DNA of 64,000 bases from Chthoniobacteraceae bacterium. Its GTDB lineage: Bacteria > Verrucomicrobiota > Verrucomicrobiia > Chthoniobacterales > Chthoniobacteraceae. The stretch covers positions 1-64,000 of the forward strand of contig CANIWM010000014.1 in the NCBI GenBank assembly GCA_947471505.1. The letters run 5' to 3'. The position numbers and the translations under genes are program-made. The notes below the pieces were generated by a model. The model ran no database searches. It was not told the origin of the DNA and worked only from the letters and a program-made list of their open reading frames with translations. Shown piece by piece: positions 39,390 to 59,600 of this stretch. How positions within the stretch are numbered: the first letter of the stretch is position 1; each line of letters begins with the position of its first letter.

Positions 39390-41096
39390 ATGACAAGCCA
39401 GCCCATCAAAGTACTGATCGTGGAGGATACTTCGGAGCACGCGCGGCTTCTTGAGCACATCCTCAGCGCCGCGACGTACCCACGATTTCACACTGCTATT
39501 GCGAGTAATCTCGCAGAGGCTTTGGCTGCACTGAGCCTTGGCGGCATCGACGCCATCCTCCTCGATCTCACGCTGCCCGACAGCCTCCCCGGCCACACCT
39601 TCAGCGCCGTCAACGCCGTCGCCCCGGACATCGCCGTCGTCATCATCAGCGGGGTCTCCGATGTTTCCAGAGCCATCGAGCTCGTCCAAGCCGGTGCGCA
39701 GGACTACCTCATCAAAGGTCAGGTGGACCACAACCTCCTCCTCCGCTCCCTCCAATACTCCGTCGAGCGCAAACGGGCCCAAGTCGCCCTCCGCCAAGCC
39801 AACGACCAACTCGAAACCCGCGTCCACGAACGCACCGCCGAACTCGTAAACACCAACAAGCGCCTCCAAATCGAAATCGCCGAGCGCAAACGCGCCCAAG
39901 AAGCTGTCGCCGCCAGCAACGAACAACTTACCCAAGCCCTCGCCGCCCTCCGCGCCGCCCAACAAGAACTCGTCCACCGCGAGCGCCTCACCGCACTCGG
40001 CACCATGGCCAACGGCATCGCCCACGAATTCAACAACGTCCTCACTCCCATCATCGGCTGGACCGAACACCTCCTACGCAAACCCGAAGACCTCGCCAAC
40101 AACGAGACGACCCGCGACACGATCCAGAAAATCCAAACCGCCGCCAACGTCGGAGCCGCCGCCGTGGGGCGCGTCCGGGAGTTTGCCCGCACCGAGGCAG
40201 ACGCCTACGGGCAACTCGTCCTCACCGACATCGTCGAGCAAGCCATCGCCTTTACCGAGCCCAAATGGCAGCACGAAGCCCAAGCGAGCGGCGTCATGAT
40301 CGACATCCGCAAACGCTTCGAGCCCATCCCCGAAGTCCACGGCGAAGCATCCCAGCTCCGCGAACTCATCACCCTTCTTCTCTTCAACGCCATCGCCGCC
40401 ATCCCCCGCCGAGGCTCCATCTCCCTCATCACCACCCAGCGCGAGGACTTCGTCGTCCTCACCGTCCGCGACGACGGGCTCGGAATGAGCAAACTTACCC
40501 GCGAACGCTGCCTCGACCCCAACCTCGGTGCCCGCCACCCCGACGGGCGTTCCTCCGGCTTTGGCATCATCCACGGCATCCTCCAGCGCCACGGCGGCAA
40601 ACTCGAAATCGAATCCGAAGAAGGACGCGGCAGCAAAGTCTCCATCCTCATTCCTATCGCCCTCGCTGTTACCCAGCCGCCCGCGCTTGCCCCCGTCCCT
40701 CCGCCCGCCCCTGAGGCCCCAATTGTCCGAACAGGAAAGCGAATCCTCCTCGCCGAAGACGACGCCATGGTCCGCGAAGTCATGGAACTTTATCTCACTG
40801 AGTACGGCTTTTCCGTCACTCTCACCAGCAACGGACGCGAGGGCATTGACGAATTTACCCGCGCCCACGGAGGGTATGACTTACTCATCACCGACCGCGC
40901 CATGCCCGAGATGAACGGCGACCAAGTCGCCCTCGCCGCCAAGCAAATCAACCCCGATATCCCCGTCATCCTCCTCACCGGCTTCGGTGGCGCCATGAAC
41001 AGCGAAGGAGAGAAGCCCCCCGGCGTGGACCTCGTCGTAGGCAAACCGTTCACCATGTCCAGCCTCCGCGAAGCGCTCGGCAAAGTCGGCTTCTAA
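39390..41096 (+). CDS. Hybrid histidine kinase, REC-HK-REC
   Basis: A 568-residue cytoplasmic protein with no membrane segment. An N-terminal receiver (about 5-125, phospho-Asp D59 in I-L-L-D-L-T-L-P) is followed by a coiled coil (about 130-195, rich in E-R-K-R-A-Q). The dimerisation/phospho-acceptor helix has H212 in G-I-A-H-E-F-N-N-V-L, then comes an HATPase domain (about 310-420, D-D-G-L-G-M-S). After a Pro-rich linker lies a C-terminal receiver (about 445-565, D502 in L-I-T-D-R-A-M-P). It probably takes signals from a partner through the first receiver and passes phosphate inward or onward. Target genes are unknown; the giant gene begins 221 nt downstream. Confidence 0.9.
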   Translation: MTSQPIKVLIVEDTSEHARLLEHILSAATYPRFHTAIASNLAEALAALSLGGIDAILLDLTLPDSLPGHTFSAVNAVAPDIAVVIISGVSDVSRAIELVQAGAQDYLIKGQVDHNLLLRSLQYSVERKRAQVALRQANDQLETRVHERTAELVNTNKRLQIEIAERKRAQEAVAASNEQLTQALAALRAAQQELVHRERLTALGTMANGIAHEFNNVLTPIIGWTEHLLRKPEDLANNETTRDTIQKIQTAANVGAAAVGRVREFARTEADAYGQLVLTDIVEQAIAFTEPKWQHEAQASGVMIDIRKRFEPIPEVHGEASQLRELITLLLFNAIAAIPRRGSISLITTQREDFVVLTVRDDGLGMSKLTRERCLDPNLGARHPDGRSSGFGIIHGILQRHGGKLEIESEEGRGSKVSILIPIALAVTQPPALAPVPPPAPEAPIVRTGKRILLAEDDAMVREVMELYLTEYGFSVTLTSNGREGIDEFTRAHGGYDLLITDRAMPEMNGDQVALAAKQINPDIPVILLTGFGGAMNSEGEKPPGVDLVVGKPFTMSSLREALGKVGF

Positions 41097-41175
41097 ACGC
41101 GTTCGAAACGCTACCTCTGTCTAGCAGTCTGATTTATCAACAGTATGCGAGGAGGCTGCGAAAGTCGCAAAAAGC

Positions 41176-41240
41176 CCGCTGCATCAAGCAGCGGCGACAT
41201 TCGGTTGCGGCGGGAAAATCAACCCCGAAAAGGGCATAGT
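41176..41240 (+). promoter_or_regulatory. Shared leader element of the giant genes, copy 1
   Basis: A 7-pair hairpin (CCGCTGC 41176-41182, loop ATCAA, GCAGCGG 41188-41194) is preceded by an A-run. It is followed 16 nt later by a 30-nt block (41211-41240) containing CGGGAAAATCAACCCC and AAAAGGG. The block matches 56538-56567 at 25 of 30 positions, and the spacing to the ATG is almost the same (78 against 72 nt). It could be a 5' leader RNA structure, operator or promoter; it looks conserved because both giant genes carry it. Confidence 0.55.
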
Positions 41241-41317
41241 GGCGATGAAGGTTATCGCTTGCAAAGGGCTGAAATTTGCATACACGCGGTGCAATCCACC
41301 AAAAATCTACCAAAACC

Positions 41318-44300
41318 ATGAAATCTTCGAAACCATCCAGAAAAGTCTCTTCCGTCTCCACCCGCATCCTCGTCGGCTCCGTCGCCGCGCTGATCGGCCA
41401 CTTCTCCGCGTCTTCGGCGAAGGCCGCCATTTTGTACTGGGATTTAAATGGAGCAACAGCCAACACGGCTGTAGCAGCGACTGGTAATTGGGATGGCACA
41501 ACTTCGAACTGGAACACCGCCGCGACGGGCACGGGTGGCACTGCACAGGCTGGTACCACGGCTGCCGATGACCTTTTCTTTTCGTCGGGGTCCAGCTACA
41601 CGACCGGGACGATCACGCTATCGGCCACGAGATTGGCGCACAGCCTCAGTTTCGATGACAACATCGCACTGACTTTATCCGGTGGTTCACTCACCCTCGG
41701 CAGTGCGACTGCCGGTTCGGGCATTTTCGCCCTCTCGACCGCCAACTCGGCAAATACCATTAGCAGTGCGATCACGTTGGCGGGTGCCTCTACGATCCAA
41801 AATGCGGGTACGGGCGTCCTCAGTATTACTGGTGGGATCACCGGCGCTTTCAACCTGACGCTCCAGAACAATGGGGCGACCGCGAATGGGGTGACCATTT
41901 CAGGAGCTTCGTTGAACAACACGGGCACCGTCACTAATTCAGGCACGGCTGCGGGGAACACGCTGATCAGCGCGATTATTGGCGCCAATGTGACCGGGGT
42001 GACGCAGAATAGCGCCACTTCCGCGCTCACTCTTTCTGGCGTGAACGCTTACACGAGTTCCACCACGGTAACCTCAGGCATTCTCCGCGCCACCACCAGT
42101 GTTCAGGCCCTCGGAACCGGAGCGGCGACCCTCTCGCTCGGTGGCGGTACCTTGCAGTTGGCCAACGACACGGGCCTCAACTTTGCTCGCAACACGACCG
42201 TCACCGCCACCAGCACGATTACGGCGGACCGTCTGACCTCGGCGGCCACTTCCACTACTCATACGCTTGGGACCCTTTCCATTGGCGCGCAGACCCTCAA
42301 TATCACTCGGGGCACCAACATCACCGGCGCTGGGGTGGGCGGGATCACCTTCGGTGCGGTGACTCTCACCGGAGCCGCTACTTTCGCCCCAGCGGCCAAC
42401 ACCTTGCTGACTCTTGGTGGCACGACAGGCCTCGGCGCGAACACCCTGACCAAATCGGGCGTAGGATCGATGACGCTGACTGGCGTGGTCAGTGGCAGCA
42501 AGGCTGTCGGTTCGACCGCGATAACTATTTCTGACGGCGTTTTGACGGCCAGCAACGCAGGGAACACCTTCACCGGCAACATCGCGGTGGACGGATCGGG
42601 CGTGTTCTCGATGGTAGGGAACACCTTCACCGCGGCAGCGCCTTATGGCACAGTGGCTGGCGGGACCGCCTACAAGCAGCTTCTGCTGACGAACGGCGGC
42701 ACCTTCCGGCTCACGAGCGGCACTTTTAACGATAACGCGGTCTCGGCAACCAACCTTGCGGGGGGCATCATTTTCAATATTGGCGCCGGTGGTGGCACGC
42801 TCGATATTGCCAGTGGTGCCACGCTCGTCATTGATGACGGGACAGGAACCGGCACTGCTACAACAGCCTCGCAGCTCCAAGGCTCTGGCAACATTCTGAA
42901 GACCGGGCTAGGCATCCTCCAGCAGGATGATTCGACGGCGTATGCGGGCACAATCACGGTTGCGGCGGGTCTTTTGCAGCCTGCATCGGTAAATGCCTTC
43001 GGCTCATCAAGCGCGGGCACCATCATCCAGTCTGGCGCGGCGCTGAACTTTGCCGCCGCCTTAGTCATGACCAATGCTGAGCCGCTGACTCTTTCCGGCA
43101 CCGGTTTGGCTTCAGCGCCTGCGGGTGCATTGACGGCTGCCGTGGCCGGCACTTGGGTAGGCCCGATCACCATTGCCTCGGGCGGTGCCACGATCGGCGG
43201 TGGCGCGGCTGCTTTAACGTTGTCAAGTGCGGCGACCATTGACGGAACTGCTGGGAACACCACGGTCGCAACAGGCGCAGGCACACTCACGCTGAACGGC
43301 GCCGTGAATATTGGCAGCAATACTCTCACGATGAGCCAGGGGGCGGGCCGGACGACATTCAACGTCACTGCCGTCATCAGCGGCACCGGATCGGTCGTGG
43401 TGAACGGCACGGGGTTGGCCGGTGACTGGGCTAATAACTCGGCTAACACCTATTCGGGCGGCACGACGCTCAATGCCGGCTCCCAGAGTGTGGTCGGCAT
43501 CGGCAGTGTCGGCGTGGGAGGTAGTGTGACCAGCGGTAACTACGGCACGGGCACCTTGATCCTGAACGGTGGCTCCATACGAGGCGGTACGGGCGGGCCG
43601 TTTACGGTTGGCAACAACGTCACCCTCCAGGCGGATACGACATTCTTCTCGGTTGCCAGTGAAAAAAGCCTGATCTTTGCCGGGCCGGTGACCATCACCG
43701 GTGCTTCCCGCACTATCAACAGCGCTGTCGGCACCACGGTCGCGGGCACCATCGTCGAGTTCTCCGGCGCTATCGGCGATGGAAGCAACACCCTCGGCCT
43801 GACCAAGACCGGCGCCGGCAATCTCAAGCTCTCCGGCACGAACACCTACACCGGGGTTACCAGCAGCACCGGTGGCAATCTCTACATCACCGGCTCCCTT
43901 GCCAACAACGGCGGCTTGTCCATCGCTCCATCCGCTGCTGCCGGAGTTTTCGTCAGCTTCGTCAACAACGCGGCCAACACCCCGGCCAACTTCAACTCCC
44001 TGAGCCTCGGGTCGGCCACCGGCACCTCCTTCATCGGGCTCGACCTCGGAACGGCTTCGGACACCATCGCCACCTCGGCTGCCGCCACTGCCACCAACGC
44101 CATCGCCTTCACCCTGAACGCGGCTACGGGATTTGGTGCCGGAAATTACAACCTGATCACTGCTGCCAGCGGTCTGACCTCCGGTTCTCCGACCTACTCA
44201 CTCAACAGCGCCCCCGGTGGTTACACCTACGGCTTCACCAACACAGACGGCCAGGTGCAGTTGAACGTCAGCGCGGCCACGGCCAGCAGCCGCTACTGGC

Positions 44301-47300
44301 GCGGTAACGTGAACAACAGTTGGAGCGCTTTCTCCGGGCTAAGCACGACCAACTGGGCGACGGATGCCGCGGGCACGGTCGGTTCTGCATCCACGCCCGG
44401 CGTCGGCGAGACGGTCTTCTTCAGCGCCAGCAACGCCACTGGGCCGACGTTTTCCACCACGCTGGACAACAACTTTACCATCAATGACCTTCAGTTCACC
44501 GCCGCACCCACCGGCGTGTCCACCGTCACCATCGCCGCCGGCACGGCTATCTCCGGCAGCAACAGCAACACGCTGGCCATCGCCCCTTCCTCTTCCTCGG
44601 CGGGCATCACCCTTGCGCAGGGCTCCGGTGCGGTCACCATCTCCGCGCCTGTGGTGCTCGGCAGCAGCCAGACTTGGTCGGTTGACAGCTCCGCGCCGGG
44701 CTCGGGCACAGCCTCCAGCCTCACGGTCGGCGGCGCGATGAGCGGCAGTGCGGGTGCCGGAGTCACTTTCACGACCACGGCGGGAACCGCGCCGATCATC
44801 CTCTCTGCTGTCGGAAGCACCTACAGCGGCGACTCAACGGTGAGCGCCAGCACCATTGTCCAAGGCGGCGCGACCAATGCCTTCTCGCCCAACACCGGGT
44901 GGACGGTCAATGGCACGCTGAACACCGGTGCATTCAGTCAGGCCACAGGCTCCCTCGTGGGCGGCTCGGGCATCGTGCAAAACGGCAGCGCCACCAATGC
45001 GACCCTTACCATCGGCAGCGATAACGTGGCCACCGCCACCTTCGGCGGCACCATTCAGAACGGCTCCACGGGCACACTCGGCATTACTAAGACGGGCACC
45101 GGCACGCAGATCCTCAGCGGCACGAACACCTACACCGGCACGACCACCGTCACCGCCGGCACGCTGCAAATTGCCAATTCCCTCGCGTATTCAGCGACCT
45201 CGGCGCTCGTGGTCAACGGCACAGGCATCTTCGACCTCTTCGGCAACAGCCTCACGGCAGCCAGTCTCGCCGGGGGAGCCGCCACCGGCACCATCACCAA
45301 CAGCAGCACCGGCATCGGTGCCTCGACCGCGATGACTCCCGGCACGCCGTCGGGAGCGGGAATCTACGTGGACGCCCTCACGGGCACCGCCGCAGGAAAC
45401 CTTCCTACAGCGATTGTGACCGACGGCGGGACCCGCAAGACGCAAATCGTCATCAACAACGCCAATTCCGGCACGGTTTTCGCGGGACTGACGGCAGCGA
45501 CTCTGAACACTTATTCGGGTGGCTTGGTTCTGGCCAACAACGCCACAGGCACGCGCCTCGTGATCAATGCCGCCATTACCGGCACGCCCTTCGGCACCGG
45601 GCCGATCATCATCGGCCAGAGCGCCACGGACAAGGCGGGCATTTACTTCAGCACCGCGGCAAACACCACGTTGGCGAACCCCATTGTGTTCAACACGGCA
45701 CTGGGCACGGACCGGGTCGGAATCCGAACCGACGTGGCAGGAATCACCCTTTCGGGCGTCATCACAGCCAATCTGGCCCCCGCGACCTTCACGGCGAATA
45801 CTGCGACCGCTGGTTCCTTTAATTTAACGAACCAAGTGACCGGCTCGAATGGACTCGTTCTGGACATCACTTCCCTCGCCGCCTCCGCCACATCCTTCAA
45901 TGTCACGCTGAACAACGGCACGGCGAACCCCAACAACTATCAGGGCGACACAGTCATCAACCTCAACGCCGCCACCGGCAAGAGCGCCACCCTGAACCTC
46001 GGCGCCACCAACCAGATTCCGAACGGAACCGGCACGGGTACCGTCATCATCAATTCAAACGGAACCGGCATCGGCACACTCAACCTCGCGGGCTTTAGCG
46101 ACACCATCAACGGCCTGAGTGGCAACGGCACCGTGGACGGAACCAGCGGCACGCCTACGCTCACCGTGGGTGATAACGATGCCACGGCGAACTTCTCCGG
46201 CATCATCAAGAACACGGCGGGCACCTTGGGAGTCACGAAAACGGGCACCGGCACGCAGACTTTGAGCGGGCCAAACACCTTCTCGGGGGCGGTCAATGTC
46301 AATGGCGGCACGCTGGCCTTCGACGCGGCCAATAATCTCGGCGACGCCACCGCCAGCAATACCATCGGCATCAACGGCGGCACCCTGAGCTACACGGGCG
46401 CGGGGGCCCTGAGTCTGGTGGCCAATCAGGTGGTGACCCTCGGCACCAGCCACGGGACGATCAATACCTCGAATGGTGCCGGTGCGTTGACCCTCATCGG
46501 TGGCGTAACCGCTGCGAACAACAATCTGACCAAGACCGGCCTCGGCAGCTTGATCCTCGCAGCCACCAGCAACCTCGGCACCGGTGCCGTGGCGGTGGAC
46601 GCCGGGGCGCTGATCGTGAACAACTCACTGACCGCCTCGGCAACCACGGTGGCCAGTGCCGCCACGCTTGGTGGAATTGGCACGCTGACCAGCGCCGTGA
46701 CCATCAGTTCCGGCGCCATGCTCTCGCCAGCTACGGGCACGACCGCTGGCACGCTCATTATCGGCAGTCTTACGCTCAATGCGGGCTCGCTGTTGGCCTA
46801 TGAATTTGGGGGTACCCCTCTCACTAATGATCTGGTGGCGGTGACCACTGCCAACGGTCTGACGCTGAATGGCGGCGCGCTCAGCCTCTATGCCGCGGGT
46901 GGTGTCACCCCACTGATCACCAACGGGACATACGACCTGTTCACTTACTCGACCGGATTTGGAGGCTCACTCGCCAATCTCACGGTCTCCAACTCCCAGG
47001 GTGGCAAGACATACGCCATCAATGACACTGGCAGCGTCATCCAATTGCTGCTCGGCACCGCAACTTCTTCCGACTGGAGCGGCACCATTGACGGTCTTTG
47101 GACGAACGACGGCGTGGGGAACAATTGGAACGGCGGCGCGCAGCCGAACAGCCTCGGGGCAGTGGCGAACTTCGGAAACCTCGCGGCTACGCCCCAGACG
47201 GTCACGCTCAATGGCGGCAAGACCGTCGGCTCGATTCTCTTCGATAACGCAAACACCTTCACCATCGGCACCAATACCGATGCCATCACCCTCGACAACG

Positions 47301-50300
47301 GCATCGCTGCGGGCGCGATCTCGGCCACGACGGGTAGTCACACCATCAATGCGCCGATCACCCTGAACGTCTCTGCAAACGTCGCGCCCGGCGCCGGGAC
47401 CACGATCACCTTTGGTGGCATCATCTCCGGCACTAACAAGTCGCTCACCTTCTCAGGAGCGGGCACGAGCGTGTTGAACGCGGCGAACACCTACACCGGC
47501 GGAACGACGCTCAGCAACGGCACCCTGAAACTGGGCAATGATTCCGCCCTCGGCAGCGGCGCGCTGACGATTGGCGCAGGCACCACCATCGACAACACCA
47601 AAGGCTCGCTGCTCACCATCGCCAATAACAACGCGCAGAACTGGAATGGCAGCTTCACCTTCACCGGCACGGAGAGCATGGACCTCGGCAACGGAGCCGT
47701 GACCCTGGGCACCACCCCGACCATCACCACCAGCAATGCAGCGACGACGCTGACGGTCGGCGGTGTGATCGGTGACGGGGTTTTCTCCCTTGGTATCACC
47801 AAGGCGGGTAATGGCACCCTGGTGCTGAGCGGCATGAGTACCTACAACGGCGCGACCAGCATCACTGCGGGCACGCTCAGCCTCACCGGTTCACTCACCG
47901 GCGGCGGGGCGATCTCGACCAGCGGCACGGGCATCCTCTCGCAAAGCGCGGCTGGCGTGATCAGCGGGGCGACCACGGTGACGCAGGGCAGCTCTGGCAC
48001 GAGCGTGCTGGCGGGGAATAATCCCTACACCGGCGCGACCAGCATCACTGCGGGAACGCTCAGCCTCACCGGCTCACTCACCGGCGGCGGTGCGATCAGC
48101 GTCTCTGGCGGCACGCTCAGTCTCACCGGTTCACTCACTGGCGGCGGGGCGATTTCGACCAGCGGCACGGGCATCCTCTCGCAGAGCGCGGCGGGCGTGA
48201 TCAGTGGGGCTTCCACGGTGACGCAGGGCAGCTCTGGCACGAGCGTGCTGGCGGGGACTAACACCTACACCGGCTTGACGACCATCAGCGGCGGTGTGCT
48301 CCGCATCACCAACGGTTCGGCGCTTGGCACCACCGCCAGCGGCACCACCCAGTCCGGCAGCAGCGCCCTTGAACTTGACGGCACGGGCGGTGCCATCACC
48401 GTGGGAGCGGAAGCACTCACGATCAACGGCGGCGGCATCACCAACTTCGGTGCGCTACGCAACATCGCCGGGGATAACACCTACGGTGGCACAGTCACGC
48501 TGGCCGCGCAGACACGCATCAACTCCGACAGCGGAACCCTCACCTTGAGCAACGCGACGGCTGTGACCGGGGCTACGCGGAACCTCGTTGTTGGCGGTGC
48601 GGGTAACATCACAATCTCTGGTGCGATAGCGACCACCACCGGGTTCGTGTCGAAGGATGGCGCAGGGACGCTCACCCTGAGTGGCACCAACACCTACACC
48701 GGCAACACGACTATCAATGCAGGCACCTTGAACATCACCGGCTCGCTAACCGGCCTCGCCGCTTCGACCAATCTCGCCTACGGCACCACCGCAGGCAACA
48801 CCATCGTCAACATCAGCGGTAGCGGCAGCGTTAATAACTACAAAAATTTCACCGGGGCGAACGTTGCCGGCAGCATCGCGGTCATGAATCAGACCGGCGG
48901 CAGTGCGAGCACTCTGGGGACGGGTGGTAGTGACACTCAGTGGGTGGCCCAAAACGGCGGCTACGGCTACCTCAACATCACCGGGGGCACGTTCAACACG
49001 GGCCGGTTCGACGGGGTTGGAGTCACTGGTGGCGGAACGGCCATCGTCTATGTCGGTGGTGCAGGTACGTTCAATAACAACTCAAGCGATTGGTTGATCC
49101 TTGCCCGGAACAGCGGTATCGGGCAGCTCACCGTCGGGCCGGGCGGCAGTCTCGTACGCACTGCGGCCGTGACCGCCAACTTGGGAATCACGATGGACGC
49201 CTCCAACGCGCACGGAGCGCTGAACATTGCGGGCGGCACCGTGGACACCGGCGTCAGGCCCATCAACTTTGGCTTCGGATCCGCCGCATTTACCGGTACC
49301 CGGGGTTTTGTGAATTTGGCAGGCGGCACGTTGAGTGTTGGTTCGGCGATTCTTCAAACTAACACTAACGCGGGTGGTCAATATTTTGAACATTTCAACT
49401 TCGGAGGCGGCACGTTGAAATCCAATGCGGCGATTACTTGGCTTCCGGCGACCAGCGCGGCAGGTCATAACATCACCGCGACCATCTATGGTGCGGTCAC
49501 GAACAACAACAACGCCAATACCGCGTTCAACACCCAAATCGGCACTACGTCGAATTTCGGCGGCGGCTTAACAGTCGATACCAATGGATTTGCCACTACC
49601 ATTGCCTACCCGCTGAGCGGTGCCACTGGTTTCGGCGTGACGCAAGGGGATATCGGCGATGTTTCCCTGTTGGCGGGTAATTCCGGTTACATCGGCGCTC
49701 CGGCGGTCGTCTTTAGCGCTCCTTCATCCTCGACCGGTGTGCCGGCCTCCGGCTATGCGGTCATCGACACCATCACCGGTAAGGTCACTGGGATTATCAT
49801 TACGAATCCGGGCACGTATGCCTCTGGCGAAGCGCCAACCATCACCTTGACTGGCGGCGGTGGATCGATCGCACCGATCACGACTCCGGTCCTGGCGACA
49901 GCCAACACCTCCGGCGGCCTCACCAAGATCGGCGCGGACAGCCTGATCCTCTCCGGCACCAACACTTACACCGGTGCCACGACCATCAGCGCCGGCACCC
50001 TGCAATTGGGTGCCGCCGGTACCACCGGCACGCTCTCCGCCAGCAGCGCCATCACGAACAACGGCACCTTTGCCATCAACCGGACCAACGCAGTGGCCCA
50101 GGGCACGGACTTCTCCGGCGCGGCGATCACCGGCACCGGTGGTCTGACGCAGGCCGGCACCGGCACCACCACGCTCACCGCTGCTAACACATTCAACGGT
50201 GCCACCCTCATCAGCGCGGGAACGCTGCAACTGGGCAATGGCACCACGGACGGTTCCATCTCCAACACCTCCTCCGTTACGAACAACGGAACGCTCACCT

Positions 50301-53300
50301 TTAACCGGGTCGGAAACTTCTCCGGCAGCTATCCAATCAGCGGAACCGGTGTGGTGAACAAGCTCGGTGCGGGCACCCAGACCCTCTCCGGGGCACTGAC
50401 TTACACCGGCGCCACCAATGTGACGGCGGGCGCGCTGACCTTCGATTCCAGTAGTTCGTTTATTACGAGTGTAGCAGCCGGCATTTTAACCGTGAATGGC
50501 TCCGGTGCCGTGATGAATATCGCCGGAACCTATAATGTTCCTAACGGAAATAATAATGCTTATTTTCAAGTCCAAGGCGGTGGCGTGCTGAATTTCAGCG
50601 GCAATGCGACCCTCACCAACGCTGCAACCGGTGCTGGCATCCGAATCGGTGAAGCAAGCGCCGGAACCATGAACATGACCGCTGGAACACTGACGGCCAA
50701 CCTGAACTTCGGTTCCAACTTCGTCGTCGGCAGAACCGCAGGCGGCAATGGCACGCTCAATGTTTCCGGCGGCACTCTGACGGTCAATAGCACGGGGACG
50801 GGCACTGGAGTCACGACCCTCCTCTTAGGGAACACCGTAGGGAACAGCGGCGTAGTCACGGTCAGCGGCACCGGCAACTTGGTGGTGACCAGCACGGCAT
50901 CACTGCAGATGGGCCCGGGAACCTCGACGATCAACCTGAACACCGGCGGCACCTTCACGCTGGGCGGCGGGGCGACCGCGAGCGGCACCAGCACCATCAA
51001 CTTCGATGGCGGCATCCTGAAGGCTGGCCTCTCCAGCACCACATTCCTTCCCCCCCCGCTCACGGCGGCCAACATCCTTGCTAATGGAGCCATCATCGAC
51101 ACCAATGGGAATGACGTTGGCATTGTCAATGTGCTGCTGCACGACTCCGGTCTTGGGGCGTCTCCCGACGGCGGCCTAACCAAGCAAGGCGCGGGCACCC
51201 TGACCCTCACCGCCGCCAGCACCTACACCGGAACCACCACTATCAGCGTGGGCACCCTGCAACTGGGCAACGGCACCACCGGCAATGACGGCACGATTGC
51301 CAACAGCCTCAGTATCGTCAACAACGCCAGCTTGGTTTACAACCGCTTCGGTAGCGCCAGCTACGGTGGTGTCATCAGCGGCACCGGCACCGTGACCAAG
51401 ACCGGTGCGGGCACCCAGACCCTGACCGGCACGAACACCTACGGCGGCACCACCACGGTCAGCGCGGGCACGCTCACGCTTTCCGGCACGGGTGCCATCA
51501 ATGGCAGCAGTGGCATCACCGTCAGCGGCAGCGGGGCCAAACTGCTCCAGACCAGCAGCGTGGCCATCACGCCTACGGTGACGCTCACGCAGGGCACCCT
51601 CACCGGCAGCGGCACGGTCAACACCGTGAACGTCGGCGACGCCACCGGCGGCATTATCTCCAACAACAACGGCGTCGAGGGCGCGGCACTGACCATCGGT
51701 GCCCTGACCTTTAACGGTGCCGCCACGGTGAACACCTTCAGCGGCAGCACCTCCGCCGCCATCGTCACGACCAGCTTGGCTACCAACGCTGCCGGGACGG
51801 TGACCATCAATCCCACGGCAACGAACTGGATCAACGGCTTGACCTACACGCTCATCAGCTACGGTGGCGGCAGCATCGGCGGCGCGGGCTTCGGCCAGTT
51901 TGTCCTCGGACCGGTCACTGGTCTCTCGGGGCGTCAGGTTGCCTCCAGTCTGACCAATACTGGCAACGCGGCCCTCACCATCGACATCACCGGCGACACG
52001 CCATATTGGGTGGGTGACGGGGACGGCAAATGGAATCTGGCCTCCACCAACAACTGGAAGCTGCTGTCCAACAACAGCGTCACAACTTTCTTGGTGGATG
52101 ACGATACGCTGTTCAATGACAACGCCAGCGGAGCGGGCCCGATCACCGTGGACATTGATACGGCCAACGTGGCTCCGAACTCCACCACCTTCGACAACAG
52201 CACCAAGGACTACGTCCTAAATGGCGCGTTTGGCATCTCCACCGGCCCTCTGACCAAGACTGGCACGGGCACCGTGACGATCAACACTGCGAACACCTAC
52301 ACGGGGGCAACCACGATATCGAACGGCACTGTGAGTCTGGCCGGCAGCTTGGGCTCCACGGCGATCAGCGTCGGGGCGAGCGGAACGCTCACGGAAACCT
52401 CGACGGGTGTGATCGGCGGCAGCGCCAGCCTGACGACGAGTGGCAGCGTGACTCTGGGCGGAAACAACACCTACACCGGTGCCACGCTCATCAACGCCGG
52501 CACGTTGCGGGTCGGCACCGGCAGCACCACGGGGTCCATTGCTAACACCTCGGGTGTCACCAACAACGCCGCGCTGATTTACAACCGGAGCGACGCGCTG
52601 ACCGCTGGCTATGTCATCAGCGGCACCGGCACCCTAGAGAAACAGGGAGCGGGCACCCTGACCCTGACCAACAGCAACACCTACACGGGCGCGACTACGA
52701 TCACTGCGGGCACGTTGCAGATCGGCAACGGCGGCACCACAGGGTCCATTGCCGGCACCTCGGGTGTGACCAACAACGGCGCGCTGATTTACAACCGCAG
52801 CAATGCGCTGGCCGCAGCCTACGTCATCGGCGGCACGGGCACCTTGGAGAAACTGGGAGCGGGAACCCTGACGCTGACCAAGACCAACACCTACAGCGGC
52901 ACGACCACGATCTCCGCAGGCACCCTGCAGCTCGGCGACGGCACCACCGGCAACGACGGCACGATTGACAACAGCCCGAGCATCGTGAACAACGCGGCGC
53001 TGGCCTACAACCTCTTCGGCACCGCCAGCTATAGCGGTTCGATCGGCGGCACCGGATCGGTGACCAAGCTCGGCGCAGGCACCCAGACCCTCTCCGGACC
53101 AAACTCCTACGTCGGCGGCACCATCGTCAATGCGGGCACCCTCCTCATTAGCGGCAGCGGCACGCTGGGCACGGGCTCGGCCCTGACGCTGGGCGGCGGC
53201 CATCTGGACCTTGGCACCACAAGCCAGACGGTGGGCGCGGTCTCCGTCACCACGGCTGCGGCCAGCGGCGACACCATCGGCAACGGCAGCCTCACCGGCA

Positions 53301-56236
53301 CCTCCTACGCCGTGAGCAACACCACGGGCACGGCGGTCATCTCTGCCAACCTGCTCGTCAACGGCGGGGCAGGCTTCGCTAAATCAGGGGCGGGCACTGT
53401 GACGCTCTCCGGCACCAACACCTTCACCGGTGCCACCACCGTCACCGGCGGCACGCTGCGTCTTGAGAATACGAGCGCCTTGGCGAGCACCGCCAGCATT
53501 ACCCTGAACACCGCGAATACTAGGGTCGAGCTGGGAACGGATAGCGCGTTCACCACTCTTCCGGGGGGCACGGGGGGCAGCACTTTAACTCACACGTTTG
53601 TTTCGGACCGGGCGACCGCAGGCGCCGCTCTGAATCATCAACTCGGCACGATGAATTTTGGGTCTTCCACGTTCAATTTCATTCAGGGCTCCAATGTCAC
53701 TAGCGGCACAGCCGGAGTCACGTTTGCCTCCGCGACTATGACCTCCGGAAGTGCCGGCACCGCCGTGCTCAACCCCACCAGCGCCACCCTCACGATCACC
53801 GGCGGGGTCACTAGTTCTACCACTAATGTCGCCCGAACCCTCCAACTGGACGGAACCGGAACCGGACATTCCATCGGCGGGGTGATCACCCAATCCGTCG
53901 CCAGTGCGCTGTCCTTGGTTAAGAGCAATACCAGCAGTTGGACGCTCTCCGGCCTCAGTTCCACCGCCGCGAACAATTACAGCGGCGCGACCACCATTGA
54001 CCAAGGCACGCTGGCGCTCTCCAGCGCAGGAACCGTGGCTCTGACCGGTGCCCTCACCTTTGGCTCCGCAGCCGGGGGCACCAACACCGGTAGCTTGGAT
54101 TTGAGCGATGCCAGCGCCACCTTCACCGGACTCGCGACGGTCCAGAAGAACTCTGCCACGGCGAACACCATCACGGTTGGAGGTTCAAAGACCTTGACGC
54201 TCAATGGCGGCTTGACCGTGGGTTACGACGCATCAGTTACCGGTGGAACAGTTGCGACGACTTCGAAACTGACCGCCAGCGGTGCGGGTTCCATCGCAAT
54301 TAACGGAACGACCATCACCATCGGTGTCAACTCGACTGGAACCAATCAGGCATTTTGGAACGATGCCACCCTCGACGTGAGCGGCCTCGCGGCGTTCAGC
54401 ACGAATGTCACCAATTTCAACATCGGCGTGGGCACCACCACGCAAGGCCCTGGCACCGTCCTGCTCTCCAATACGGCCAACACCATCATCACGACTGGCC
54501 TCAAGCTCGGGGATACCGGCGGCAACAATGGGAGAGGCCCCGGCACTCTGATTCTGGGAACTGGAACGAATGTGGTCCAGGCCGACACCATCGAAATTGG
54601 AAAAGGAAAAGGCACCGCTATTAGCGGCAGCATCGTGAAATTTGCATCCCAGACTGCGGGAAGTCAGGGAACCGTCACGATCGGCAATAAAGCGGGAACC
54701 GGCGCAGCGAATATTACGATTGCCAACGTCAACGCGGTCGGCACCGCCGGCGGGTCTATCGCAACCTTGGATCTCCGAGGCCACGTGGCGACGGTGAACG
54801 CGGGAACGCTACTCGTGGGCCAGACCAACGCTGCGACCAGCGTGGCGGGCACGAATGGAACAATCAGCTTTGACGCGGGAACATTCACGGTAGCCACCCT
54901 GACGATGGCCCCGAAAACCGCTGCTTCGACTGGAACGGCAACGGCCACACTGAATGTCGGCGGCGGCGCCTTCACGGTGAATACCGCCTTCACCCTCGGT
55001 TCCCAGGCGACGGCAGGCGCATCGGTAGCAACGCTAAACCTCACGGGTGGCACATTCACTTCCAATGCGAACATCACCCAAGGTGGAGGAAGCACGACAT
55101 CCACCATCAACTTGGATGGCGGCACGCTGGACCTCACCAACCACAGCATCGGTGGTGCGAACGCAATCGCGCTCAACGCCAAACAGGGAACCTTGAAAAA
55201 CCTGGCCACGCTCAACAGCGGAGGAACGCTCACCAAGAGCACGACTGGAACTTTGATTCTTACAGGCACGAATGGCTATGTGGGCCTGACCGATGTGACG
55301 AACGGCGTCGTCCGAGTGCAGAGTGCGACCGGCCTCGGCACCACGGCGGGCGCAACCTCCGTGACCGGCGGTGCGAACCTGCAGATCGAGAACGTCAATG
55401 TGGGCGCTGAAAACCTGACCCTGAACGGGACCGGATTGGCGGGTGAAGGTGCGCTGAGCGCCACCGGGACGGCTGCGGTTTCCGGCACTGTGTTGCTCGC
55501 TTCCGACAGCACTGTCGGTGTTGCGACGCTCGGCGACACACTGACCCTCTCGGGTGCAATCAGTGGCACGGGAGTCAGCGGCTTGACCAAAGTCGGCAAC
55601 GGTCGCCTGACGCTCAGCGGCAGCAACCTGTTCACGGGCACGACGAATGTGGACAGCGGAACGCTCGAAATCTCCGGCTCCATCTCCGGCCAAGTGGCCC
55701 TGAATGACGGGACGCTCACCGGAAACAGCACCAGCGGCACGACTGGTCGCATCTCGGGCCTTGCGACCCTCTCAGGCGGAACAGTCAACCCTGGGGCAGC
55801 AACCGGCACCGCATCGGGCCAGCTCTTGATGAACGGCGGCCTGACATTTAGTGGAGCATCGGCGGTATTCAATCTCAACGGCACCACTGCGGGAACCGGC
55901 TATGACCAACTTGCGGTGACCGGTGCTGTAAGTCTCTCCGCGAATGTGCCGTTTACGATTAGTCTAGGATTCGTAGCGATGCCGGGAGATGCCTTTGTCC
56001 TCGTGAATAACGACGACGTGGATGCAGTCGCGGGTGGCTTCAAATTTAGCTATGCAGGAACGCCACTTAATGAGGCTGACCACTTCTTCAATGGGCTGGA
56101 GGAATACTCAATCAGCTACGTCGGCGGAACGGGCAACGACATCACGGCGACATTCGTCGTGCCGGAGCCTACCAGCGCAGCATTGCTCCTCGGTGGACTC
56201 GCCATGCTCGCCGGACGACGCCGCCGCCGCGCGTAG
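41318..56236 (+). CDS. Giant PEP-CTERM autotransporter-strand-repeat protein
   Basis: From the ATG at 41318 the protein has 4972 residues. It opens with a long signal peptide (M-K-S-S-K-P-S-R-K-V-S-S, hydrophobic core, S-A-K-A-A). About twenty-five autotransporter-associated beta-strand units follow (N-T-Y-T-G-x-T-T-I-x-x-G-T-L, preceded by L-T-K-x-G-x-G-T-L-x-L-S-G). The C-terminus V-P-E-P-T-S, hydrophobic stretch, R-R-R-R-R-A is a classic PEP-CTERM anchor, normally processed by an exosortase after export. A repeat-rich, Ala/Gly/Thr-dominated surface adhesin or biofilm/matrix protein is the usual inference. Several internal units are recent duplicates. Long opposite-strand frames over it are codon-bias shadows. 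The upstream frame to 41276 lacks signal-peptide sense and is not used. Confidence 0.93.
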   Translation: MKSSKPSRKVSSVSTRILVGSVAALIGHFSASSAKAAILYWDLNGATANTAVAATGNWDGTTSNWNTAATGTGGTAQAGTTAADDLFFSSGSSYTTGTITLSATRLAHSLSFDDNIALTLSGGSLTLGSATAGSGIFALSTANSANTISSAITLAGASTIQNAGTGVLSITGGITGAFNLTLQNNGATANGVTISGASLNNTGTVTNSGTAAGNTLISAIIGANVTGVTQNSATSALTLSGVNAYTSSTTVTSGILRATTSVQALGTGAATLSLGGGTLQLANDTGLNFARNTTVTATSTITADRLTSAATSTTHTLGTLSIGAQTLNITRGTNITGAGVGGITFGAVTLTGAATFAPAANTLLTLGGTTGLGANTLTKSGVGSMTLTGVVSGSKAVGSTAITISDGVLTASNAGNTFTGNIAVDGSGVFSMVGNTFTAAAPYGTVAGGTAYKQLLLTNGGTFRLTSGTFNDNAVSATNLAGGIIFNIGAGGGTLDIASGATLVIDDGTGTGTATTASQLQGSGNILKTGLGILQQDDSTAYAGTITVAAGLLQPASVNAFGSSSAGTIIQSGAALNFAAALVMTNAEPLTLSGTGLASAPAGALTAAVAGTWVGPITIASGGATIGGGAAALTLSSAATIDGTAGNTTVATGAGTLTLNGAVNIGSNTLTMSQGAGRTTFNVTAVISGTGSVVVNGTGLAGDWANNSANTYSGGTTLNAGSQSVVGIGSVGVGGSVTSGNYGTGTLILNGGSIRGGTGGPFTVGNNVTLQADTTFFSVASEKSLIFAGPVTITGASRTINSAVGTTVAGTIVEFSGAIGDGSNTLGLTKTGAGNLKLSGTNTYTGVTSSTGGNLYITGSLANNGGLSIAPSAAAGVFVSFVNNAANTPANFNSLSLGSATGTSFIGLDLGTASDTIATSAAATATNAIAFTLNAATGFGAGNYNLITAASGLTSGSPTYSLNSAPGGYTYGFTNTDGQVQLNVSAATASSRYWRGNVNNSWSAFSGLSTTNWATDAAGTVGSASTPGVGETVFFSASNATGPTFSTTLDNNFTINDLQFTAAPTGVSTVTIAAGTAISGSNSNTLAIAPSSSSAGITLAQGSGAVTISAPVVLGSSQTWSVDSSAPGSGTASSLTVGGAMSGSAGAGVTFTTTAGTAPIILSAVGSTYSGDSTVSASTIVQGGATNAFSPNTGWTVNGTLNTGAFSQATGSLVGGSGIVQNGSATNATLTIGSDNVATATFGGTIQNGSTGTLGITKTGTGTQILSGTNTYTGTTTVTAGTLQIANSLAYSATSALVVNGTGIFDLFGNSLTAASLAGGAATGTITNSSTGIGASTAMTPGTPSGAGIYVDALTGTAAGNLPTAIVTDGGTRKTQIVINNANSGTVFAGLTAATLNTYSGGLVLANNATGTRLVINAAITGTPFGTGPIIIGQSATDKAGIYFSTAANTTLANPIVFNTALGTDRVGIRTDVAGITLSGVITANLAPATFTANTATAGSFNLTNQVTGSNGLVLDITSLAASATSFNVTLNNGTANPNNYQGDTVINLNAATGKSATLNLGATNQIPNGTGTGTVIINSNGTGIGTLNLAGFSDTINGLSGNGTVDGTSGTPTLTVGDNDATANFSGIIKNTAGTLGVTKTGTGTQTLSGPNTFSGAVNVNGGTLAFDAANNLGDATASNTIGINGGTLSYTGAGALSLVANQVVTLGTSHGTINTSNGAGALTLIGGVTAANNNLTKTGLGSLILAATSNLGTGAVAVDAGALIVNNSLTASATTVASAATLGGIGTLTSAVTISSGAMLSPATGTTAGTLIIGSLTLNAGSLLAYEFGGTPLTNDLVAVTTANGLTLNGGALSLYAAGGVTPLITNGTYDLFTYSTGFGGSLANLTVSNSQGGKTYAINDTGSVIQLLLGTATSSDWSGTIDGLWTNDGVGNNWNGGAQPNSLGAVANFGNLAATPQTVTLNGGKTVGSILFDNANTFTIGTNTDAITLDNGIAAGAISATTGSHTINAPITLNVSANVAPGAGTTITFGGIISGTNKSLTFSGAGTSVLNAANTYTGGTTLSNGTLKLGNDSALGSGALTIGAGTTIDNTKGSLLTIANNNAQNWNGSFTFTGTESMDLGNGAVTLGTTPTITTSNAATTLTVGGVIGDGVFSLGITKAGNGTLVLSGMSTYNGATSITAGTLSLTGSLTGGGAISTSGTGILSQSAAGVISGATTVTQGSSGTSVLAGNNPYTGATSITAGTLSLTGSLTGGGAISVSGGTLSLTGSLTGGGAISTSGTGILSQSAAGVISGASTVTQGSSGTSVLAGTNTYTGLTTISGGVLRITNGSALGTTASGTTQSGSSALELDGTGGAITVGAEALTINGGGITNFGALRNIAGDNTYGGTVTLAAQTRINSDSGTLTLSNATAVTGATRNLVVGGAGNITISGAIATTTGFVSKDGAGTLTLSGTNTYTGNTTINAGTLNITGSLTGLAASTNLAYGTTAGNTIVNISGSGSVNNYKNFTGANVAGSIAVMNQTGGSASTLGTGGSDTQWVAQNGGYGYLNITGGTFNTGRFDGVGVTGGGTAIVYVGGAGTFNNNSSDWLILARNSGIGQLTVGPGGSLVRTAAVTANLGITMDASNAHGALNIAGGTVDTGVRPINFGFGSAAFTGTRGFVNLAGGTLSVGSAILQTNTNAGGQYFEHFNFGGGTLKSNAAITWLPATSAAGHNITATIYGAVTNNNNANTAFNTQIGTTSNFGGGLTVDTNGFATTIAYPLSGATGFGVTQGDIGDVSLLAGNSGYIGAPAVVFSAPSSSTGVPASGYAVIDTITGKVTGIIITNPGTYASGEAPTITLTGGGGSIAPITTPVLATANTSGGLTKIGADSLILSGTNTYTGATTISAGTLQLGAAGTTGTLSASSAITNNGTFAINRTNAVAQGTDFSGAAITGTGGLTQAGTGTTTLTAANTFNGATLISAGTLQLGNGTTDGSISNTSSVTNNGTLTFNRVGNFSGSYPISGTGVVNKLGAGTQTLSGALTYTGATNVTAGALTFDSSSSFITSVAAGILTVNGSGAVMNIAGTYNVPNGNNNAYFQVQGGGVLNFSGNATLTNAATGAGIRIGEASAGTMNMTAGTLTANLNFGSNFVVGRTAGGNGTLNVSGGTLTVNSTGTGTGVTTLLLGNTVGNSGVVTVSGTGNLVVTSTASLQMGPGTSTINLNTGGTFTLGGGATASGTSTINFDGGILKAGLSSTTFLPPPLTAANILANGAIIDTNGNDVGIVNVLLHDSGLGASPDGGLTKQGAGTLTLTAASTYTGTTTISVGTLQLGNGTTGNDGTIANSLSIVNNASLVYNRFGSASYGGVISGTGTVTKTGAGTQTLTGTNTYGGTTTVSAGTLTLSGTGAINGSSGITVSGSGAKLLQTSSVAITPTVTLTQGTLTGSGTVNTVNVGDATGGIISNNNGVEGAALTIGALTFNGAATVNTFSGSTSAAIVTTSLATNAAGTVTINPTATNWINGLTYTLISYGGGSIGGAGFGQFVLGPVTGLSGRQVASSLTNTGNAALTIDITGDTPYWVGDGDGKWNLASTNNWKLLSNNSVTTFLVDDDTLFNDNASGAGPITVDIDTANVAPNSTTFDNSTKDYVLNGAFGISTGPLTKTGTGTVTINTANTYTGATTISNGTVSLAGSLGSTAISVGASGTLTETSTGVIGGSASLTTSGSVTLGGNNTYTGATLINAGTLRVGTGSTTGSIANTSGVTNNAALIYNRSDALTAGYVISGTGTLEKQGAGTLTLTNSNTYTGATTITAGTLQIGNGGTTGSIAGTSGVTNNGALIYNRSNALAAAYVIGGTGTLEKLGAGTLTLTKTNTYSGTTTISAGTLQLGDGTTGNDGTIDNSPSIVNNAALAYNLFGTASYSGSIGGTGSVTKLGAGTQTLSGPNSYVGGTIVNAGTLLISGSGTLGTGSALTLGGGHLDLGTTSQTVGAVSVTTAAASGDTIGNGSLTGTSYAVSNTTGTAVISANLLVNGGAGFAKSGAGTVTLSGTNTFTGATTVTGGTLRLENTSALASTASITLNTANTRVELGTDSAFTTLPGGTGGSTLTHTFVSDRATAGAALNHQLGTMNFGSSTFNFIQGSNVTSGTAGVTFASATMTSGSAGTAVLNPTSATLTITGGVTSSTTNVARTLQLDGTGTGHSIGGVITQSVASALSLVKSNTSSWTLSGLSSTAANNYSGATTIDQGTLALSSAGTVALTGALTFGSAAGGTNTGSLDLSDASATFTGLATVQKNSATANTITVGGSKTLTLNGGLTVGYDASVTGGTVATTSKLTASGAGSIAINGTTITIGVNSTGTNQAFWNDATLDVSGLAAFSTNVTNFNIGVGTTTQGPGTVLLSNTANTIITTGLKLGDTGGNNGRGPGTLILGTGTNVVQADTIEIGKGKGTAISGSIVKFASQTAGSQGTVTIGNKAGTGAANITIANVNAVGTAGGSIATLDLRGHVATVNAGTLLVGQTNAATSVAGTNGTISFDAGTFTVATLTMAPKTAASTGTATATLNVGGGAFTVNTAFTLGSQATAGASVATLNLTGGTFTSNANITQGGGSTTSTINLDGGTLDLTNHSIGGANAIALNAKQGTLKNLATLNSGGTLTKSTTGTLILTGTNGYVGLTDVTNGVVRVQSATGLGTTAGATSVTGGANLQIENVNVGAENLTLNGTGLAGEGALSATGTAAVSGTVLLASDSTVGVATLGDTLTLSGAISGTGVSGLTKVGNGRLTLSGSNLFTGTTNVDSGTLEISGSISGQVALNDGTLTGNSTSGTTGRISGLATLSGGTVNPGAATGTASGQLLMNGGLTFSGASAVFNLNGTTAGTGYDQLAVTGAVSLSANVPFTISLGFVAMPGDAFVLVNNDDVDAVAGGFKFSYAGTPLNEADHFFNGLEEYSISYVGGTGNDITATFVVPEPTSAALLLGGLAMLAGRRRRRA
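47843..48265 (+). repeat. 183-nt tandem module with an inserted 57-nt partial copy
   Basis: Units start at the TAC codons at 47843 and 48026, exactly 183 nt (61 residues) apart. The second unit is 240 nt long, because 57 nt (19 residues around S-L-T-G-G-G-A-I-S) is duplicated inside it; the next TAC is at 48266. The stretches are nearly identical, suggesting recent slippage or unequal recombination. The frame is kept. Confidence 0.8.
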
Positions 56237-56638
56237 TGGGGTTTTTCAGTTTGGGGTGGGTAGCGCTTTGACGGGTTGCGCTCATCTTATGGGGAAATGT
56301 AGGAATCACGCGTCCTTTTGACGGGGGGCGTAGGGGTTCCCGGCATCCGCGTAAGTGCCGGCGTGGTCAGGGGTGGCTGCGTCGGCACAGCCTTTTGGAT
56401 TGTTGGCTCGGTTGGCTAAAAGAGACTACTCTCCTGCGCTCCGAGCGGTTGCGCGCGAATGCATCCGCCGAAAAGCACGCGCTCGATCTTTCGGAAAAGG
56501 CGCGCCGTATCAAGCGTGCGCCAGCCTTCGTTCTCAGCGGGAATATCAACCCCCAAAAGGGGGTGGTTACTTAACGGGAAAATTATTTACAGGATGAGGG
56601 AATGCTTCTAGCGGTTTTAAAAAGCCCGAAACTCGTTT
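56237..56638. other. Intergenic region between the two giant genes
   Basis: About 400 nt without a convincing gene. It holds a small inverted repeat, CCGGCA (56340-56345) with TGCCGG (56356-56361), and near its end the second leader copy. I see no clear rho-independent terminator behind the first giant gene; short frames here have no protein character. Confidence 0.6.
56499..56567 (+). promoter_or_regulatory. Shared leader element of the giant genes, copy 2
   Basis: A-run at 56495-56498, then a hairpin of seven pairs including one G-T (GGCGCGC 56499-56505 with GTGCGCC 56516-56522) with ATCAAG in the loop. The 30-nt block follows at 56538-56567, where CCCCC-AAAA-GGGGG forms a perfect small hairpin. 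ATCAAG-to-block spacing is 29 nt here and 28 nt in copy 1. The stem bases differ from copy 1 while pairing is kept, which favours a structured element. Confidence 0.55.
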
Positions 56639-59600
56639 ATGAAATCTTCCAATCCATCCAGAAAACAATCTTCACGCTCCTCCCGCGCCCTCATCGGCTC
56701 TATCGCCGCGCTGCTCGCTGCACATTCACCGCAGGCTGCTAACTATTTCTGGGATATTGACGGTGTCACCGCCGATGCGGGCGGGGCCACTCCCAGCGGC
56801 ATCTGGGGAACCCTTGGCACGACTTGGAGCACGGATCCCACGGGTTCCGCTCTGACTCCCGGCTACACCACGCTGGGGATCGACGACCTTTTCTTCTCCG
56901 CCGGTACAAATGCCACGGGAACTTACACCGTCACACTCGGGGCCAACCAAAACGCGAAGAGCCTGACCTTTCAGGAAGGCACTAACGTCGTAGTCACCGC
57001 CAACACCATCACCCTCGCTGGTGGCGGTGGCATCACCGTGGACACGACCTCTACGACTGGAGCCACCATCAGCTCGGGCCTCACCATCAACGGCAACAAC
57101 ACCTTCAATATCGGCAGCGGCGAGACGCTCACGCTGAACACCGGCACCTTCACCCGTGGCACCCGTGCCACTCTCAATGTCCAAGGCTTGGGCACCGTCA
57201 CTTCCACCCAGACCGGCTTGGCAACGGCCGGTATGGTTAATGGCATCATCGGGCCTTGGGCCAGCATCGGCACTGGCGCTACCACGCGATACGCCACCTT
57301 CACCGGCAATAACATCACCGCCCTCACCGGCACCGCAGCAGCTACGGCCGCGAACGTCACCAGCACGCTTGGCACCTTCAACTACGATGTGGCCGCCGCC
57401 GGCACGCTCGGAGCAGGCGCGAGCGTCAATACGCTCCGCTATACGGGAGCGGCGGGCACGATCGCGGGTGGATTGACCACGAAAGGCATCATGAACGTGG
57501 GCGGTGGTTTGTTGACCTTCACCGGCGCGGTGACCTCGGGGGCAGCCGCGACGGAACTGGTCATCAATACCGCGAACGGCGACATCACCATGAGCGGCGC
57601 GGGCGGTATATTGACCGGCACCATTACCAAGACGGGGGCCGGCACGATGACCATGACGGCTCAAGCCCACTCCATTGGCGGTATCACGGTCAATGAAGGC
57701 GTATTGATCACGAATCACTCCGTCGGCGATGGGATCACCGGCACCGCCGTCGCGATCAACAGCGGTGGCACGTTGAAATTCGGTGGCAGTAACAAGCACG
57801 TCAATTCCTCCCTGTTCACCGTGAATGCGGGGGGAGGCTTTGATCTTAATTCATTTAGTGACACCATCGGTGCCATCGCTGGTGCCGGATCGATTACGAC
57901 GACCTCGGGAACACCGACGCTGATTTTATCGTCCGGCACGCAGACGTTTTCCGGCGTGATCAGTGGAACTTTAGCCCTCACGTTAAGTAATGCCGCAGCA
58001 GTCCAGACCCTCTCCGGCCAGAACACCTACACCCGCGGCACTACGATTACCGCTGGCACCCTGATCCTTGGAAATACGAATGCCTTGGGCACTAGTCCAG
58101 GCGTCAACGGAACCAGCGGGATCTCGATTGCTTCGACTGGAATCCTTCAAGCGAACCCAAATGGAACCACCATCGTCGCTCCGATCACCCTGAGCGGAGT
58201 CGGCGACGCCACTTTGCGCGTTGGACTAGCGACAGCCAGCACGTTTAACGTCAACGGAGGGATCGGAGGCACGACCGGGAATCTGGTGTTTAGTACCGAT
58301 GCGGCGAGCCATGCCAACGCGGTCTCGACGTTCGTTCTGGGTGCTGCTGGCACTTACGCGGGTAACACGCTCATCACGACTGGAAACGGAGGAAACAACC
58401 CGGTGACCGTCAGAGCTGGGGTTGGAATCGTCAACGCCTTGCCGGTGACCACGGTCTTGAGCTTCGCTGGCGTCGCTGGCGGTGGCACCGGACGGGTTTT
58501 TACGTATGATATGAACGGCAACGCCCAAACGCTCGCCGGTTTGACAAACACCGTCGCGAGTTTGAGGAGGTCATTTTTCACGAACTCTGGAGCCCTGGCC
58601 ACGCTGACCATCAACAACACTACCGACATGAGCTTTGGTGGCTCAGATTTGACCACGGGCAGCACAAACAGAACTCAAATCACCGGTAACATCGCCCTGA
58701 CCAAGAGCGGAGCGGGAACCTTCACCTTGGGCGGCACCCTGCTTGGTGGTGCGACTGCTGGCGGCAATACCTTTACCGGCGACACCAAAGTCTTGGGCGG
58801 CATTTTGAACCTGGGTGAAACCCTTTCGTTGCAGAGCAGCACCTTCGACACCGCGAACAGCATCTTGGGAGATGGGACCAACGGTTTGCGGACCACGGTA
58901 ACCACCCTGACCCTCGGTGGCCTCTCCGGGAACAAGAACTTCGCCGATGTATTCACCACCGCCCTAGGCGGAACAGGCGGCGTGACTACCCGGGGCGGCT
59001 ACGACGGCTTGACCGCCCTGACGCTGAATCCCACGGCTACTCTCAGCTACCCCGGCAACATTGCCGAGGGAGCCGCCGGCATGAATCTGACCAAAGGCGG
59101 CGCAGGTGCTCTGACCCTCAGCGGTAACCTCACCTATACCGGCGCGACGACACTCAGCACGGGCACCTTGACCCTCACGGGTGTCAACACCTACGCCGGC
59201 GCGACCACGATCGGCGGCACGATCCTTAACGCCAATTCGACCGACGCCTTGGGCAGCGCCAGCAACACCTTAGTCTTCACCGGTGGAACGCTCCAGGCCG
59301 GCGGCACCATCACCTCCCCTTCCACGCGCCTAGTGACCCTGACGAGTACGGGACTGATCGATACCAACAGCAATGCCGTCAGCATCGCCGGTATCATGAG
59401 CGGAGCGGGCGGAGTGACGAAGAGCGGGCTCGGCACCTTGACCCTCACCGGTAGCAGCACTTACACCGGCGCGACCACGATCGGTGTCGGCACTTTGAAT
59501 GCTAATTCGACCACTGCCTTAGGTGATGGCAGCGCCAGCAATACCCTGGTCTTCACCGGGGGCACGCTGCAGGCCGCCAACACCATTACCTCTCCCTCCA

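Follow-up and report, generated by a model that had tools for sequence, protein, structure and literature searches.

Why do two neighboring giant genes in the genome of a Chthoniobacteraceae bacterium carry a similar short stretch of DNA ahead of their start codons, and does that stretch act as RNA, as DNA, or not at all? The window, by which we mean the whole 64,000-nucleotide stretch analyzed here, corresponds to C14:1-64000 of a 6.07-Mb genome in 153 contigs. Its plus strand carries a hybrid histidine kinase gene with receiver domains (39390-41096; Pfam HisKA, HATPase_c, and Response_reg), then giant gene 1 (41318-56236, ATG at 41318) and then giant gene 2 (56639-64000, ATG at 56639, extending to contig position 65212). 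Gene 1 is predicted to encode a PATR-repeat surface protein of 4972 aa with PF12951 in 20 stretches (E 1e-94) and a PEP-CTERM tail, and gene 2 is of the same type, with PF12951 at E 2e-60 and its PEP-CTERM tail at C14:65135-65206. A third tandem giant PATR/PEP-CTERM gene (L094), 65% identical to gene 1 in its N-terminal region, begins immediately past gene 2 and lies beyond the window at about C14:65401-79422.

The similarity itself is not in doubt. Copy 1 of the element occupies 41164-41237 and copy 2 occupies 56490-56564, and the alignment of 41165-41234 with 56491-56561 gives 76% identity over 71 nt (E 1e-9), which is wider than the 30-nt block to which the first-pass annotation had drawn attention. 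The best ungapped 30-mer between the two intergenic regions is that block, with 25 of 30 positions identical (41211-41240 and 56538-56567), while in 500 dinucleotide shuffles of both regions the best 30-mer averaged 18.2 and never exceeded 24. The block is beyond chance, and the shared element is real. Its layout was also described correctly: an A-run, a hairpin, a spacer of 15 to 16 nt, and the block, followed by the ATG at 77 nt in gene 1 and 71 nt in gene 2. No similarity between the copies can be detected over the roughly 75 to 80 nt that separate block from ATG or in the flank just upstream, and the distance from block to ATG is near-constant despite this unalignable sequence. A regulatory role for the element is likely because of its position and this steady distance to the start codon. 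The accompanying claim that the flanking intergenic DNA is otherwise dissimilar does not hold, since identity resumes exactly at the ATG (81%) and the first 160 bp or so beyond gene 1 resemble the DNA that follows gene 3.

A pattern search of 40 genomes of the family for further copies yielded one, in the same-genus genome G032 (submitted as a Prosthecobacter debontii MAG), on contig CAMDQC010000136.1, which ends inside gene 1. This copy is flanked upstream by the same kinase (97% aa identity) and downstream by the gene 1 ortholog (79% aa identity). Among 10 genomes of the genus, a close ortholog of the gene 1 5′ end occurs in G032 only, and the element is present there. This brings the element to three sequences in all, two of which are close orthologs.

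The third sequence bears directly on the proposal that the two copies share a covarying hairpin. Each window copy does fold alone as a stable 25-nt hairpin; when 25-mers are drawn at random from the contig, about 0.1-0.2% of them reach this stability. The stem drawn for copy 1, CCGCTGC-ATCAA-GCAGCGG (41176-41194; −12.5 kcal/mol as drawn), and that drawn for copy 2, GGCGCGC...GTGCGCC (56499-56522; −11.0 kcal/mol as drawn), occupy different columns of our alignment (A1), with copy 1 pairing columns 13-32 and copy 2 pairing columns 10-33. In the copy 1 register there are two double changes, a number equaled in 222 of 500 column shuffles, and in the copy 2 register there are none. In G032, the 3′ arm reads GCGTGGC where copy 1 has GCAGCGG, with the opposite arm unchanged, so that 3 of the 7 drawn copy 1 pairs are lost, all through 3′-arm changes, and one more is weakened to G-U. 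Given all three sequences, RNAalifold chooses another fold with an unfavorable covariation term and finds no double-change pair. The further copy therefore loses the drawn pairing, and with it the covariation argument for the stem fails; as a test of pairing, a comparison of only three sequences is weak, and the pairing may or may not be real. An apparent covarying hairpin seen in two copies can arise from duplication plus drift, and here a single additional copy sufficed to undo the argument.

The element might nonetheless act in the transcript, as a structured 5′ leader RNA whose AUCAA-loop hairpin or block dyad would serve as an attenuator, a stability element, or a protein-binding leader. 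In its favor, a stable local hairpin with AUCA in the loop is possible in each of the three copies (−13.5 kcal/mol in copy 1, −11.2 in G032, and −14.0 in copy 2), and two pairs are changed on both sides on one register. However, the G032 hairpin is an alternative in a shifted register, in 10.6% of trials a random 3′ arm did no worse than that of G032, the changes that break the drawn stem fall on one arm only, and the double changes stand at the shuffle level noted above. The dyad within the block, described as CCCC-N-AAAA-GGG, fares in a mixed way: it is indeed perfect in copy 2 (CCCCC-AAAA-GGGGG) but only 2 bp of it are left in the ortholog from G032 (CCCCCAAAAGGA). Comparison with Rfam 15 returned chance matches only, with no family near the element. 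We regard a leader RNA of this kind as unlikely, the case for it from covariation having been lost. Still less probable is a narrower version, a lineage-specific leader RNA combining the AUCAA-loop hairpin with the CCCC-N-AAAA-GG block, which would govern how very long surface-protein mRNAs are translated or how stable they are and whose stem would have arisen anew, each time in another register, in the individual copies. On the minus strand, window positions 41174-41194, 41222-41235, and 56550-56562 look like intrinsic terminators, each a stem followed by a T-run; these features coincide with the copy 1 hairpin and the block dyads of both copies, and no convergent gene is apparent.

The 3′ arm of G032 agrees with window copy 2 (ATCAAGCGTG), so that copy 1, with its perfect stem, appears to have the derived state. 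One source for such a change could be a dispersed repeat. Throughout the genome, on at least 15 contigs (L003, L008, L010, L012, L014, L016, L020, and others), there is a REPIN-like repeat, CAAGGAGCGGCGACATTC[CT]TGTCGCTGT, arranged as inverted pairs with a usual spacing of about 120-140 bp; several of these adjoin GTGTGATTAAAAGTGGAAT. Part of copy 1 might then be a trace of this inverted-repeat element, with the perfect hairpin produced by conversion or insertion: the copy 1 sequence CAAGCAGCGGCGACATTC matches the repeat end at 17 of 18 positions, the repeat occurs as many inverted pairs, and the state that G032 shares with copy 2 (GCGTG) again makes that of copy 1 look derived. The match ends after 18 nt, however, and beyond it copy 1 can be aligned to both copy 2 and G032; because of this limit the repeat cannot explain the whole element, and we consider even a partial contribution highly improbable.

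What is kept within the element appears to be sequence. Between window copy 1 and G032, 68 of 74 positions of the whole element are identical, including 12/12 in the spacer and 28/30 in the block (together 40/42), and the hairpin is the least conserved part, at 16/20 versus 52/54 for the remainder of the element (Fisher p 0.04). For comparison, the upstream flank retains 64 of 67 positions, the stretch from block to ATG 66 of 80, and the neighboring kinase gene is 88% identical at third positions. The evidence that the element is more constrained than the block-to-ATG stretch is suggestive only (p 0.10). Columns invariant across all three copies cluster in ATCAAGC and GCGGGAAWATCAACCCC-N-AAAAGG. 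With the hairpin changing more than its surroundings within the element, these alignments favor the invariant sequence (ATCAAGC and GGGAAWATCAACCCC-N-AAAAGG), rather than the stem, as what has been retained.

The first-pass annotation had favored selection over leftover duplication on the grounds that the flanking intergenic DNA was otherwise dissimilar. The rest of the array does not bear this out. The 5′ coding patches of gene 1 (41318-41396) and gene 2 (56639-56717), which encode the signal peptides, are 81% identical over 79 nt, with 21 of 26 third positions the same and the same codon used for 14 of 17 shared amino acids, against 5.3 expected from codon usage. The gene-end DNA, its non-coding part included, is 79% identical over 215 nt between genes 1 and 3 (C14:79348-79560), 84% over 95 nt between genes 1 and 2 (C14:65168-65262), and 87% over 112 nt between genes 2 and 3. 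After gene 1, the 3′ coding end and 3′ intergenic module span 56186-56396, common to gene 3 and in their first part also to gene 2, and include a terminator-like stem at 56375-56392 in a terminator scan. The intergenic module (GCGCTTTGACGGGT[AT]GCGCTCATC) is kept after all three giant genes, at window 56237-56396, C14:65213-65262, and C14:79426-79560. The mature N-terminus of gene 3 is like that of gene 1, but its leader and signal-peptide start differ. The 5′ coding DNA of gene 3 (214 bp) is 84% identical to G032 gene 1 versus 75% to window gene 1, which suggests exchange between array members. As read from these alignments, the array is pieced together, mosaic-like, from duplicated modules, and given this history shared DNA upstream of two of its members is expected.

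The element could thus be no more than identity left over after the 5′ ends were duplicated in tandem or underwent gene conversion, and any resident promoter would then be its only functional part. Its own identity of 76-80% is comparable with the 81% of the 5′ coding patch, third positions and codons included, and with the 79-87% of the 3′ modules; selection on translation starts could have raised the 5′ coding figure. The combination in gene 3 of another leader with a gene 1-like mature N-terminus likewise points to module-wise exchange. On the other hand, the 75 to 80 nt from block to ATG have no detectable similarity even though they lie between patches at 76-81% identity, and this stretch also changes fast in the ortholog pair; unless it was replaced, neutral remnants would be expected to fade evenly. 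We treat leftover duplication as a possible but doubtful account of the whole element. The functional reading is retained because the element stands out from the diverged stretch on either side.

How far the element extends beyond these genes bears on its proposed role in the control of a surface-protein family. This genome has 42 PEP-CTERM tails and PATR repeats in many frames. The element model finds the two window copies only, that is, 2 of 42 PEP-CTERM loci; the third tandem giant gene lacks the element, as do those leaders of other PEP-CTERM/PATR genes of this genome that were read directly. The block core likewise has just two copies in this genome. Of 46 matches to the 15-mer at up to 2 mismatches, 30 were read, most of them coding-looking, and among these 30 a giant PATR gene follows only the two known copies. 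The sequence model returned no credible copy beyond the three in the family, in 213 genomes of the order, or in 388 of the phylum. Weak matches such as L140 in the order and L236-L239 in the phylum (E-value times genomes about 0.04-0.15), with no PATR/PEP-CTERM neighbor recognized, do not rise above chance once the number of genomes is taken into account and were set aside. An exact-pattern scan of 84,980 species recovered G032 plus one other match, within what appears to be an acyl-CoA-dehydrogenase-like gene of a deltaproteobacterial MAG, which we took as chance; viral contigs gave none. Loci of other giant-gene homologs in the family lack the element even with filters off. Homologs of the kinase occur in 10/10 genus genomes, with other genes following them in the relatives whose downstream DNA was read. 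The element is thus homologous between the two window copies, present at the ortholog in one relative, and absent elsewhere, and as far as seen the array and element together are restricted to this genome and G032. The family-wide role falls with this distribution, the element being missing upstream of other such genes here and in relatives. Both outcomes that the first-pass annotation had named as counting against its reading, this absence and the loss of pairing in a further copy, have been observed at least in part. Two observations made along the way concern the wider locus. In the same family, G016:C2 (about 85366-86073; L062, L104) has a 20,385-codon open frame that matches the gene 1 N-terminus at 39% and would encode an exceptionally long predicted surface protein, and the upstream-kinase homologs L227 (G033:C80) and L233 (G026:C5) each contain one in-frame stop (TGA and TAG, respectively).

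Taken together, on balance the element is probably a promoter-proximal control segment of about 70 bp acting at the DNA level, an operator or part of a promoter, carried in a duplicated 5′ module. This module would consist of the upstream element and the signal-peptide start, common to two neighbors of the three-gene array. A protein would bind the invariant parts, ATCAAGC and, further downstream, GGGAAWATCAACCCC-N-AAAAGG, and the bound factor would set the transcription of both giant genes together. The invariant columns, the constancy of spacer and block, the steady distance to the ATG, and the co-occurrence of element and gene in G032 argue for this DNA-level segment. Against it, pure residual duplication would give similar overall identity, there are three sequences with constraint at p 0.10, and the promoter scans gave no consistent hit: a sigma-70 scan was empty in both upstream regions, and sigma-70, ECF-like, and sigma-54-like searches found nothing consistent across the three copies. 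The neighboring kinase was considered as the binding factor and rejected, as it has receiver domains but no DNA-binding domain. Of the original proposal of selected cis-regulation, then, a shared upstream cis-element stands and its regulatory role is likely, and the parts concerning leader RNA, a surface-protein family, and an origin other than duplication found no support. If the element is a shared operator, it would offer a handle on the co-expression of two giant surface proteins in one lineage, in a phylum that yielded no PEP-CTERM control site in Haft et al. 2006 (PMC1569441).

The element described here is real and local, a duplicated upstream sequence of a kind already known, and the structured-RNA and family-wide readings of it are unsupported. 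One of its closest counterparts is the PEP-CTERM box. That box, reported in Proteobacteria only, combines a motif 1 with a sigma-54 motif 2 and precedes most PEP-CTERM genes in the proteobacteria studied (Haft et al. 2006, PMC1569441). Motif 1 is 17 nt long with TTTACA at its end, and 32-92 nt separate it from motif 2, which has GG at −24 and GC at −12 (PMC1569441). As in the box, a conserved non-coding element precedes PEP-CTERM genes in large intergenic regions. A weak GG-N10-GC lies between element and ATG. These sites, at −52 in gene 1 and its ortholog and at −47 in gene 2, are far from the full consensus, and GG-N10-GC occurs in 9 of 26 PEP-CTERM leaders versus 6.6 in shuffles, not more commonly than by chance. 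Unlike the box, the element has another sequence, with no TTTACA in copy 1 or G032, and it occurs at 2 of 42 loci rather than at most. Motif 1 is absent: TTTACA appears only before gene 2, downstream of the element, and in 1 of 26 leaders (chance level), and TTTGCA appears before gene 1 and its ortholog. Nor was a PrsR (TIGR02915) above the curated cut-off found in this genome; its best NtrC-type protein reaches 412 bits versus 502.6 and scores higher as AtoC/NtrC. The element resembles the sigma-54 PEP-CTERM box but is not a member.

With the cis-regulatory leader RNAs of Rfam 15, such as riboswitches and attenuators, the element shares a place upstream of the start codon and a GC-rich hairpin, but it matches no family there, and its drawn stem is lost in the third copy. 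The remaining comparison is with duplicated tandem genes that share upstream regions. Tandem paralogs keep the upstream region, signal-peptide start, and 3′ end at similar identity, and here too the 5′ module and 3′ ends stand at similar identity; unlike in that pattern, the stretch from block to ATG has been replaced or has diverged completely, and the element is left standing on its own.
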